From: Clostridiaceae bacterium
GTDB taxonomy: Bacteria > Bacillota > Clostridia > UBA1212 > DUPL01
DNA: 64,000 nucleotides
Reading direction: 5' to 3'
Assembly (NCBI GenBank): GCA_012838385.1
Contig: DUPL01000121.1
Coordinates: 1-64,000 of the forward strand
Shown one piece after another: positions 17,712 through 21,986 of this stretch; position 1 is the first letter of the stretch, and each line of letters opens with the position of its first letter. The position numbers and the translations under genes were made by a program. The notes under the pieces were generated by a model. The model ran no database searches and was not told the origin of the DNA. It was given only the letters and a program-made list of their open reading frames with translations.

Positions 17712-20390
17712 TCATTGCCAAGGCACATATACCGCATCTATTTCAGCAAACCCCGTGGACAAGTTGGTTTTTTGTATTGAAATTGCATGGGTACCTTCTG
17801 TTAGTGGAACAAAAACTTCAACATAAGTCTCATCATCAAAAACTCCCCATCCCAAATCCGTCTTCTTGTAATTGACAACTGCTGCCTTCTTTCCATTAAC
17901 AAACAAATCATGACTTGCATCTCCAAAAAATGCTGCATAGTATATTCTGAAACAATACATATTATTCTCAGAAACATGAATCTTAAAAGCTATTCCATCT
18001 CCAGCTTTATCAATTCCACCTACATGGCTTCCTCTATTATTGGCGTTTCCCAATACAATTGAATGTTCAGCCTCCCATCTGTATGCGAAAACTTCACTTT
18101 TTCCATCAAACTCAAGACTTTTTATCTTTACCGAAGACACATCTCCTTTAAACTCCACTCTGTTGTACATGTTTTGCATTATTGGAAGCGGCAGCGAGAA
18201 ATATTCCTCACCCTTGTATAAGGAAACACTATCAACAATTTCCCCATTTACAAGAACATCAATACTTGAATCCTTCTCCACATCGCACCTTATCAATCCT
18301 GTATATTTGCCAAGAGGCAATGCACCAAGCCTTGCATTTTCGTCATTTTTGTCAACAGGTGCAACCACAGTGTCAAAAACATTAAAATCGGGCTCATACA
18401 AAACCTTTTCTTTACCGTACCAGGGCATTAGTGAAGCCCTTAACCTGGCAAAACCATAAGGTATTAGTCTAATTTTAACCTCTTTGCCATGTTCCGAAAC
18501 AGGACTTATCGGCAATGTGGATGCACCCTTTATCCTGTCATCATATTCCCAGGACTCCACAATTGCTCCCTTTGCCTCAATTTCAATCGGAACACTGACT
18601 GATTTAAACACAAGATTGTCATAGTCATATCGTTTTTTTCTCTTTACCTTAAAACCTTCACTTAAATTCAGTGCATAGTTCCAATTGCTTTTTGGCGTTA
18701 TGTTGTAGGAAGAATACTTTTCAGGAATCTTCCAGTCGGTTGACACATAAGAAATCTTTTCCCAGTTTTCCTCGATAAACAAGCAGAAAACAAGAGGTCC
18801 GTATGTAACCCCAACACTGTTATTCTGCATGAACTTTGTCCTTATCTTCATCGGCAGTACGATCTTAACCTCGTCCCCGGACTTCCACTCTGCCTCAAGC
18901 CTTACAAATGAACCCTCTTTACAACTACCCTTGAAGTCTCCATTTACATATATTTTAGCTTCATCACACCATGAGGGAATCCTAATGTACAGAGGCCATG
19001 TCTCCTCGTTATCCGCCTCGATTTTTAATAATATGCTGTCTTCAAAAGGATAATTGGTTTTCTGCGTTATCATCACATTTGTATTATTACCAACCTGGGC
19101 TTTTACAGCATTTGGAGCATATGCAAACGCTAAAAGCCCGCTATCACTTGTTCTGAACCACAAGTTGGATGCAAAAAGCGGCCAACCCATATGGAAGTTG
19201 TGTATGCAGCAGGGATACCCGCCAGGTGTTCCATACACAGATCTGTCTCCACCGTCTGAAGAAAAGCCATGATACCCCAAGGTTGCTTCTATCTGATTCT
19301 GCATGGTGAAATATACCTGCCCAGTTATTTCTGGTGTAAGCTGTGACGGCAGTGCATTGAAGCAAACCTTTTCAAGGCTGTCGCCTATCCTTGGGTCTTT
19401 CAAATATCTGAATGCTACAATGTCGCTGAACATCTGCTCAACAACAGCACAGGTTTCCGTTCCTCTTGTCGCCTCAATATCTCCTGACATTTCATCACCA
19501 TTTGACATTCCATCTATTCTACCGCTAGTCCTGAACAGATTCCGAACTCCTGAATAATATGTATCCACATAAGTTTTATCTCCTGTCATTCCAAACATAA
19601 GCGGAAACAATTTAAAGCTTTGATGGGTGTTGACTATGTGTCCCCAATTCCCCTTTTCGTAGGCAGACTTCCAATTATCAGCCTGGTTATACAAAAGGTT
19701 GCACAAATCGACAAGGTACGATTCCTTCGTTTTATCATACAGCCATTTAGCCGCATATATGTTGTCACCAGCTCTAGCCTTTCCCCAATCCCTCAATGGA
19801 TCTTTCTTCAATGCATCCAGCTGGAATCTGAAATATGCATCCAAAAAGCCAATTACCCTTTCATCTTCTGTGGCATCATAATATTCTGTTAATGCTATAA
19901 GCATGGGCATCATTGCCCAGTAGTCAAAATCCGGCATGCCTGCCTTGGGTCCTGCCTGTCCATTATCAATCTGACTTTCTATCACCCAGTCTATCCACTT
20001 TTGCACTTTTTCTTTAAGTGAGTCATCATCAAGGGCGTATGCAAGATAAACAAGACCTCTTACGTAATACGGGCCTCTTTCCCAGCTTTCCCCACTACCT
20101 CCAAGCCAACCAGAACGATCATCTCCGGTGGTTTTCACATCCGGAGATATGTCCTCAAACTCTCCAGTAATATTCTTCTTCTGCAAAAGGAGCTGGTTTA
20201 AAAGCCAGCCCTTTGCCTCAATATCGCCCAAAGGAATGGGCGAAAGCACTATACTATCCAAATTATGCATGGAAAAACTAACCTCTCTATTGTCTTTATT
20301 TATAAACAAGACCAAAATCAAGGATACACTTAAAACACAGATTATCAAAACTAAAAGAGTTTTAGTTTTTATGCCCTTTTTTTTTAACAA
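17712..20390 (-). CDS. Membrane-anchored GH127-like glycosidase with C-terminal CBM
   Basis: An 892-residue protein starting at TTG. Residues 11-31 are a signal anchor, 45 to about 620 an (alpha/alpha)6 domain of the DUF1680/GH127 type, and 765-892 a CBM6/35-like beta-sandwich (EAEHSIVLGN, FRIYYAAFFGDASHDLFVNG, GFAEIDAVYV). E312 and C314 in GTETC and the pair C394-C395 in YPCC correspond in spacing to the Glu-Cys-Cys-Cys zinc site of GH127 beta-L-arabinofuranosidases, where one cysteine is the nucleophile. Activity on arabinan-like plant glycans outside the cell is likely. There is no clear Shine-Dalgarno; the start overlaps the preceding CBM gene by 29 bp around an A9 run. A fused product is possible. 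Confidence 0.8.
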   Translation of the reverse strand: MLKKKGIKTKTLLVLIICVLSVSLILVLFINKDNREVSFSMHNLDSIVLSPIPLGDIEAKGWLLNQLLLQKKNITGEFEDISPDVKTTGDDRSGWLGGSGESWERGPYYVRGLVYLAYALDDDSLKEKVQKWIDWVIESQIDNGQAGPKAGMPDFDYWAMMPMLIALTEYYDATEDERVIGFLDAYFRFQLDALKKDPLRDWGKARAGDNIYAAKWLYDKTKESYLVDLCNLLYNQADNWKSAYEKGNWGHIVNTHQSFKLFPLMFGMTGDKTYVDTYYSGVRNLFRTSGRIDGMSNGDEMSGDIEATRGTETCAVVEQMFSDIVAFRYLKDPRIGDSLEKVCFNALPSQLTPEITGQVYFTMQNQIEATLGYHGFSSDGGDRSVYGTPGGYPCCIHNFHMGWPLFASNLWFRTSDSGLLAFAYAPNAVKAQVGNNTNVMITQKTNYPFEDSILLKIEADNEETWPLYIRIPSWCDEAKIYVNGDFKGSCKEGSFVRLEAEWKSGDEVKIVLPMKIRTKFMQNNSVGVTYGPLVFCLFIEENWEKISYVSTDWKIPEKYSSYNITPKSNWNYALNLSEGFKVKRKKRYDYDNLVFKSVSVPIEIEAKGAIVESWEYDDRIKGASTLPISPVSEHGKEVKIRLIPYGFARLRASLMPWYGKEKVLYEPDFNVFDTVVAPVDKNDENARLGALPLGKYTGLIRCDVEKDSSIDVLVNGEIVDSVSLYKGEEYFSLPLPIMQNMYNRVEFKGDVSSVKIKSLEFDGKSEVFAYRWEAEHSIVLGNANNRGSHVGGIDKAGDGIAFKIHVSENNMYCFRIYYAAFFGDASHDLFVNGKKAAVVNYKKTDLGWGVFDDETYVEVFVPLTEGTHAISIQKTNLSTGFAEIDAVYVPWQ

Positions 20391-21012
20391 TAAGGACTAT
20401 CACGAGAGCAGCCAAAACAACAACTGCAGCAGGAACTACAACGAACAAAGTATTGAAGGAATCTTTTTCCTCAGTAGTGGTTTCCTGTGTTTTTGTAGGT
20501 TTGGGCGCTTCTGTTTTAGTTGGAATTGGCGTTTCTGTTGGTTCCGGTGTAGGCTCCGGAGTGTACAAAGTAACGGGAATAAGTCTGATTGCGTCCAGTT
20601 CTGCAAACCCTTCATCCTCTTCCGTTTTTTCAAGCCTTAATGTACATACACCTGTCGGAAGTGTAACTTCTGTTTCCACATATACATCTTCTGAAAAGGT
20701 AGACCAACCCAGTTCAGACTGAGGATACATTATCCTTTCAATCTCCTCATCGTCAATAAATAGTGTGTGGGAATTGTTTCCCTCAAGGGCCGCCGCATAG
20801 TAGATTCTCAGCTTGTAAACACCCGGAGCGGTTGTCTCATCAAGAATAAATTCAACATATGCACCTGCATTGTCTATCTGCGCTACATGATCACCAGCAT
20901 TGTTGCACATATAAATAGAAGCCAGTTCCGCCTCATACCTGTCTCCTTCTTCTGCATGGGCCAGAATTGAAAACATAAGGATTGCAATAATAAGTACAAC
21001 TATCCTTTTCAT
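20362..21012 (-). CDS. Cell-surface carbohydrate-binding protein with C-terminal anchor
   Basis: A 216-residue protein: signal peptide (1-20), a CBM6/35-like domain (24-148), a Pro/Thr/Glu linker of TPEPTPEP type (150-180), one transmembrane helix (about 188-208) and a KKKGHKN tail. Its CBM is clearly paralogous to the C-terminal domain of the downstream GH127-like enzyme; both share the RIYYAA, LGW and GFAE(L/I)DA motifs. No catalytic domain is present. It probably holds plant polysaccharide at the surface for the neighbouring enzyme. GGAGGTGTT precedes the ATG. The last codons read through nine consecutive A before GGG, and the downstream gene uses the same bases in another frame. Confidence 0.82.
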   Translation of the reverse strand: MKRIVVLIIAILMFSILAHAEEGDRYEAELASIYMCNNAGDHVAQIDNAGAYVEFILDETTAPGVYKLRIYYAAALEGNNSHTLFIDDEEIERIMYPQSELGWSTFSEDVYVETEVTLPTGVCTLRLEKTEEDEGFAELDAIRLIPVTLYTPEPTPEPTETPIPTKTEAPKPTKTQETTTEEKDSFNTLFVVVPAAVVVLAALVIVLIVKKKGHKN

Positions 21013-21107: not shown

Positions 21108-21905
21108 TTACATGTTTCTTGACATGCTTCTCCACTTGGAAGGCGCCATATTAAATGCCTTAACAAAATTCCTGTAAAATACTGAAACGTCCCCAAATCC
21201 CACATCGTAAGCTATTTTCTCAATGGAATAGTCCGTAGTACATAGTAATTTGCATGCCATCTCAAGTCTGATTTTTGCAAGATACTCAAGAGGTGCTATA
21301 CCATATCTTTTTTTGAATATGCTTCTTGTGTAATCCTCGGAGAAGTTGACAAGCTCTGACAAAGTTTTGAGAGTTATGTGTGATTGATAATTCTTTCTCA
21401 TGTAATCGAGCAAAACCGTACCTGCATTGCATTTGGGCTGTTCTATCTCATTTTCATAAAAGAACTGCAAGAAATCAAGAAACAGAGACTGCACTTCCAA
21501 AATGTCACTTGCACTGTCTAGATGAGCATAAGCAATTCTATCAAGATAGTTTCTATATACATGAACTTTACACTTTCCTCTTGTTGGCAGTATCAAGGTC
21601 TTTGCAGGAAAATATCCGGTATAATCAGAAACTTCCTGGGTGAAGTGGATGTAATAATATTTGGGGGTTTTACTGGGCCTCAAAGCGCTTTGATAGATGT
21701 TTGGTCTTTGTATGTAGAATTCGTCCTTGTTAAGTTCCACCTCTCTGCCGTTTTCAGTAAAATACAATTTTCCTTCCACCATTATTATTAAAATATACTC
21801 CATGTTTTTTCTTGTAATGTGCCACTCTCCCTCTTCAAACTCCCGAAAGGCAGATATCCTGAACATGGGATATGGGGGAATCTCAAGTTGTATAATATTT
21901 TCCAT
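21108..21905 (-). CDS. AraC-family transcriptional regulator
   Basis: A 265-residue regulator. Residues 1-160 are a cupin-like effector domain (WHITRKNMEYILIIMVEGKLYFTENGREVELNKDEF), 165-265 the double helix-turn-helix domain (HITLKTLSELVNFSEDYTRSIFKKRYG and YSIEKIAYDVGFGDVSVFYRNFVKAF). Such proteins sense sugars and activate neighbouring catabolic genes. The ATG at 21905 follows GGAGGAAATGT. It lies directly upstream of the CBM and GH127-like genes and divergent from the CBM9-like gene, so it probably controls both. Confidence 0.9.
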   Translation of the reverse strand: MENIIQLEIPPYPMFRISAFREFEEGEWHITRKNMEYILIIMVEGKLYFTENGREVELNKDEFYIQRPNIYQSALRPSKTPKYYYIHFTQEVSDYTGYFPAKTLILPTRGKCKVHVYRNYLDRIAYAHLDSASDILEVQSLFLDFLQFFYENEIEQPKCNAGTVLLDYMRKNYQSHITLKTLSELVNFSEDYTRSIFKKRYGIAPLEYLAKIRLEMACKLLCTTDYSIEKIAYDVGFGDVSVFYRNFVKAFNMAPSKWRSMSRNM

Positions 21906-21986
21906 ACATTTCCTCCAATGTTCCGAATTATATACATTTCTTTTTAATATTATACCATATTCTTTCATATTTTTTGTCATAGCATG

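Follow-up and report, generated by a model that had tools for sequence, protein, structure and literature searches.

Among the closest described systems is IS1447, an IS3-family element of Clostridium thermocellum that uses +1 transcriptional slippage: an A9 run lies at the overlap of two ORFs, and the loss of one A joins their frames (PMC6211511). In that element ~16% of cDNA clones lacked one A and ~16% carried an additional one, and the genomic DNA was uniform (PMC6211511). Another A9 cassette showed 40% frameshifting (PMC3711429). A short and a long product, with near stops in the other frames, are known for dnaX of Thermus thermophilus (A9) and for the two-ORF dnaX of Chlorobi (A7–A10) (PMC1088944, PMC3711429), and a longer product arises in Shigella when slippage fuses two ORFs, as for mxiE and spa13 (PMC1088944, PMC5009743). 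The locus analyzed here resembles IS1447 in its A9 run at a two-ORF overlap, in the joining of frames by loss of one A and in its clostridial host. It differs in encoding membrane-anchored surface proteins with no significant stem-loop, whereas IS1447 encodes a transposase and has a stem-loop by the run. Likewise, dnaX is one housekeeping gene with established products, whereas here two genes with separate relatives are involved; and the Shigella examples are secretion-system genes in which slippage was shown experimentally.

We analyzed a window of 64,000 nucleotides from a Clostridiaceae bacterium (contig DUPL01000121.1). Below, G000 denotes the genome under study and G001 its sister species. 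The relevant features of the window are as follows.

21108..21980, minus strand: AraC-type regulator, upstream of the CBM gene on the same strand
20362..21012, minus strand: CBM protein, 216 aa, Shine-Dalgarno (SD) of -13.1 kcal/mol
17712..20390, minus strand: GH127-like enzyme, 892 aa counted from TTG; residues 770-888 form a CBM35-like module at the C-terminus
20377..20385, minus strand: A9 run (T9 on the plus strand), A10 in G001

The minus-strand order is thus AraC-type regulator, CBM gene, GH127-like enzyme gene and an acetyltransferase-like ORF. The CBM protein comprises, in order, a signal peptide, a CBM6/35-like module, a PT-rich linker, a membrane helix and a KKKGHKN tail. In the enzyme, the GH127 catalytic and middle Pfam domains scored 59.7 and 74.1 bits, above their cut-offs of 24.9 and 24.2, and its TETC and PCC aligned with 4qjy, matching the Glu-x-Cys and Cys-Cys motifs of the metal site, as in HypBA1. 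By these domains and motifs the enzyme is GH127-like, and it is predicted to belong to the beta-L-arabinofuranosidase family. It shares the catalytic and middle domains and the aligned ETC and CC motifs with the GH127 beta-L-arabinofuranosidases 4qjy and 5mqo, whereas the N-terminal membrane segment and the C-terminal CBM occur only in the present enzyme, whose sequence is distant (57 bits to 4qjy). The CBM_6 score of the upstream protein (27.5, cut-off 28.9) and the CBM_35 score of the enzyme C-terminus (25.6, cut-off 28) fell narrowly under threshold, so both modules are termed CBM-like only. A first-pass annotation, made from the letters of the window, had called the two CBMs paralogues; their 38% identity over 119 aa agrees with this.

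The two genes share 29 nt around the A9. At the run, the CBM frame reads ATT GTT AAA AAA AAA GGG CAT AAA AAC TAA, with its stop at 20362-20364, and the enzyme frame, +1 relative to it, reads TTG TTA AAA AAA AAG GGC ATA AAA; the nine A common to the end of one gene and the start of the other, the +1 relation and the TTG were all as the first-pass annotation had described. Its further proposal, that the frames are joined once one A is lost, was also borne out, as an A8 run encodes a single ORF of ~1,100 aa. Both at this locus and in G001, run lengths of A8 or A11 yield one ORF of 1,099 or 1,100 aa, and lengths of A7, A9, A10 or A12 lead to a stop inside five codons, giving products of 213-217 aa. 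No stem-loop stronger than in shuffled sequences followed the run. A recoded form of the run with all start codons intact is AAGAAAAAG. The run at 20377-20385 is the single A/T run of ≥9 in the window, and 13 occur genome-wide. A first-order Markov model derived from the window predicted ~5 such runs in the window and ~196 in the genome, such that A9+ runs are ~15-fold rarer than expected genome-wide (13 vs ~196). This scarcity is in line with the selection that acts against long runs of this sort in bacterial coding regions (PMC1088944).

G001 (contig JAAYLF010000233.1), in which the enzyme is 89% identical, is the sole close relative: no further genome with the gene pair was found among 391 of the class, and a contig search returned the G001 record alone. 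The positions at which the enzyme could begin, and its membrane segment, compare with G001 as follows.

20388..20390, minus strand: TTG at which the enzyme ORF is listed to begin, without an SD (-2.4 kcal/mol); TTA in G001
20370..20372, minus strand: ATA in the enzyme frame, kept in G001; a conceivable non-canonical start with no SD
20304..20348, minus strand: core of the enzyme N-terminal membrane segment, beginning at an in-frame TTG that is conserved; differs from G001 at 4/45 sites
20268..20270, minus strand: in-frame ATG past the membrane segment; SD of -7.6 (-8.0 in G001)

Over 3.3 kb, the sole indel is the run itself, which is A9 here and A10 in the sister species. G001 has a frame relation of -1 instead of +1, and its enzyme frame is shut by a TAA directly ahead of the run. 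Ahead of its membrane segment G001 has no ATG, GTG or TTG; one TTG lies inside the segment. Across this one relative, and hence two genomes in total, the run was kept and its length and shift direction changed; a comparison of run length in orthologous loci had been proposed in the first-pass annotation. The chief alternative offered there, a coupled start at the TTG, was weakened by the same comparison, since the codon is not conserved and G001 has TTA plus a stop just before the run. Relative to G001, a third-position bias is evident in both the CBM and the enzyme ORFs; counted from ATG 20270, the first 1,069 nt of the enzyme gene hold 16/15/83 differences by codon position. The enzyme is under purifying selection. 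Because 11 of the 27 sites from the run to the inner TTG differ without third-position bias, this intervening stretch is free of sequence constraint.

Both genomes are draft assemblies, and the true run might be A8 or A11 with one ORF, or the pair might be decaying. This would need errors in two genomes, the frame continues through ~12 other coding A9/A10 runs of G001, and the purifying selection on the enzyme also argues against it, making the explanation very unlikely. Homopolymer sequencing error, raised in the first-pass annotation, accordingly lost ground, and error-prone assembly was rejected as the main cause because G001 reads through most of its coding A9 runs without a frame change. 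A different use of the run would be phase variation, in which replication slippage alters its genomic length and so switches a surface protein, which would be separate at A9/A10 and fused at A8/A11. The run being the sole indel in 3.3 kb between the two species fits such a locus, as do its surface-protein products, and phase variation at poly-A is an established class (PMC3711429). However, A9 is short for a contingency locus and neither genome holds the fused state, so we regard phase variation as unlikely.

We then calculated SD strength for each candidate start; values for genes of the window lie mostly between -6 and -12 kcal/mol. The claim that TTG 20390 lacks a clear Shine-Dalgarno held at -2.4 kcal/mol, and TTG 20348 has no SD either. 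ATG 20270 is the only candidate start with an SD, although a comparable SD also precedes 5% of internal ATGs. Starting there would leave out the conserved membrane segment. An anchored enzyme therefore requires either an SD-less start or slippage from the CBM gene with its strong SD. The N-terminal membrane segment of the enzyme is real. An open and equally hydrophobic stretch arose in 0 of 5,000 dinucleotide shuffles of the region, and the chance of only 4/45 differences in the core, taking the third-position rates of both genes, is 0.01 to 0.0003. It is hardly credible, then, that the enzyme is solely a soluble cytoplasmic protein made from ATG 20270 with the hydrophobic stretch untranslated: the sole SD, conserved in G001, speaks for it, but the stretch far exceeds shuffles in hydrophobicity, its core is conserved and the relatives are exported. 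We rejected a cytoplasmic-only enzyme on the conservation of the membrane segment. ATG 20270 may yield a soluble enzyme as a second form.

Dozens of surface proteins on many contigs of G000 and G001 have a common C-terminal anchor consisting of a Pro/Thr linker, a helix, a K/R tail and a stop. Among 40 anchor regions taken from both genomes, ~36 had a clear helix, K/R tail and stop. These ~36 other anchors terminate as the CBM protein does, with no second domain, and this shared lysine-tail ending makes the CBM protein appear complete. The A-runs in the other tails are of 2 to 8 A, none of 9. A9 is uncommon, yet lysine coding by three AAA alone could explain the run. Enzyme orthologues at 47% identity are separate exported proteins, mostly with their own lipoprotein signal, and no CBM gene was seen upstream of them. 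On these orthologues, the ancestral arrangement was likely a separate exported enzyme.

These observations bear directly on the view that the locus simply encodes two separate proteins, with the enzyme starting by itself in or near the overlap through termination-reinitiation after the strongly translated CBM gene: at TTG 20390 here, and in G001 at the ATA or at the membrane segment's internal TTG. The run would then merely be AAA AAA AAA for the lysine tail, which needs no special reason given the sister anchors, and any slippage product would be noise. KKKGIKTKT followed by a helix resembles an ordinary signal anchor, the orthologues are separate exported proteins, and weak SDs also occur at several other genes of the window. 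Against this, G001 lacks TTG 20390 and has no standard start that would give a basic N-terminus, and the inner TTG common to both species would yield a helix without N-terminal charge. None of TTG 20390, ATA 20372 and TTG 20348 has an SD, and 0 of 36 other anchor tails has a run of more than 8 A. Separate proteins are a real possibility, though we would not expect this to be the answer.

The alternative that we propose is transcriptional slippage at the A9/A10 run, through which one operon would give two outputs. The majority of transcripts would yield the 216-aa CBM protein ending at the lysine tail, and an A8 or A11 minority would continue into the enzyme frame to give a protein of ~1,100 aa. 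The fusion would place, in order, a CBM outside, a helix, a basic loop inside, a second helix, and the GH127 domain with the second CBM outside, a hairpin topology suggested by the charges. Several points support the fusion: A8 or A11 joins the frames in both species though their genomic runs differ; a native clostridial A9, that of IS1447, is measured to undergo the loss of one A required here; the enzyme and its membrane segment are under selection; G001 has no conventional start before the conserved membrane segment; and A9+ runs are depleted 15-fold yet one is kept here in both species. The +1 versus -1 frame relation, the unconserved loop, the complete-looking CBM protein, the separate exported orthologues, the lack of a stem-loop beyond shuffles and the normal SD of ATG 20270 count against it, and no fused relative of the CBM–enzyme pair was found. 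For the fusion that the first-pass annotation had put forward, the geometry thus stands, but it is seen in two genomes only, with run length and shift direction differing and the loop not conserved. The fusion would take a single assumption, that slippage occurs at the rate found elsewhere, and would work in both species, whereas separate initiation takes an SD-less TTG here and, in G001, another start that is non-standard or internal. Slippage during transcription of the A9 is probably frequent enough for some joined protein to be produced, and the sister species and the FtsK run described below raise the likelihood of this. That slippage is the route actually used to anchor the enzyme has, in our estimation, slightly less than an even chance; we infer a useful slippage rate, stability of the fusion, hairpin insertion and function at this locus.

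We also considered other A-runs in the lineage. The genome has six coding A9 runs, and the frame switches at three: the CBM–GH127 junction, a lipoprotein and an FtsK/SpoIIIE paralogue. In the last, the A9 (G000:C125:14584-14592) lies in the linker and is conserved in G001. Linker runs of A9-A11 occur in this paralogue in 11 genomes of the order, from three families, with the motor domain after the run out of frame in 6/11 and in frame in 5/11. Every non-productive length of the run leads to a stop within 4-44 codons. In the class outside the order, FtsK homologues are nearly all single ORFs among the matches listed. In the text available, two large surveys of frame transitions say nothing of FtsK, and a literature search returned no paper on FtsK slippage. 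The paralogue looks like a dnaX-type two-product gene, and its slippery run is a stronger case than the CBM–GH127 junction. Since this run varies likewise in length and direction, we dropped the differing shift direction as a disproof of slippage. The FtsK run lends indirect support to slippage in the lineage, and none to function at the CBM–GH127 junction. Tentatively, and with some doubt, the order may use long A-runs as decoding switches, in which RNA polymerase slippage would set the ratios of membrane-only to full FtsK and, at the cell surface, of free anchored CBM to CBM–glycosidase hairpin fusion.

Several other runs were noted in passing. The lipoprotein gene (G000:C16:7843-7851) is split at A9C5, with its signal peptide in one frame and its body in the next; in G001:C22 the same gene has A8C6 and is otherwise identical in sequence. 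Two 510-nt stretches ~5 kb apart on these contigs (G000:C16, G001:C22) are essentially identical, while the species otherwise differ by 10-16%, which points to recent transfer or cross-binning. An RNase H gene runs in frame through an A9 into a NUDIX hydrolase gene (G000:C125:28118-28126; both identities assigned by eye), an arrangement conserved in G001:C186; slippage at this run would yield a separate RNase H. An IS110-like transposase, also identified by eye, changes frame at an A9 (G001:C194:907).

If slippage does act at the CBM–GH127 junction, RNA polymerase slippage would tether a surface polysaccharide-degrading enzyme to a second binding module, and the free-to-fused ratio would be set by one operon without a regulator. 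Gene callers would always list two separate proteins at such a locus. The cellular use of slippage would thereby extend past dnaX, IS elements and secretion systems.
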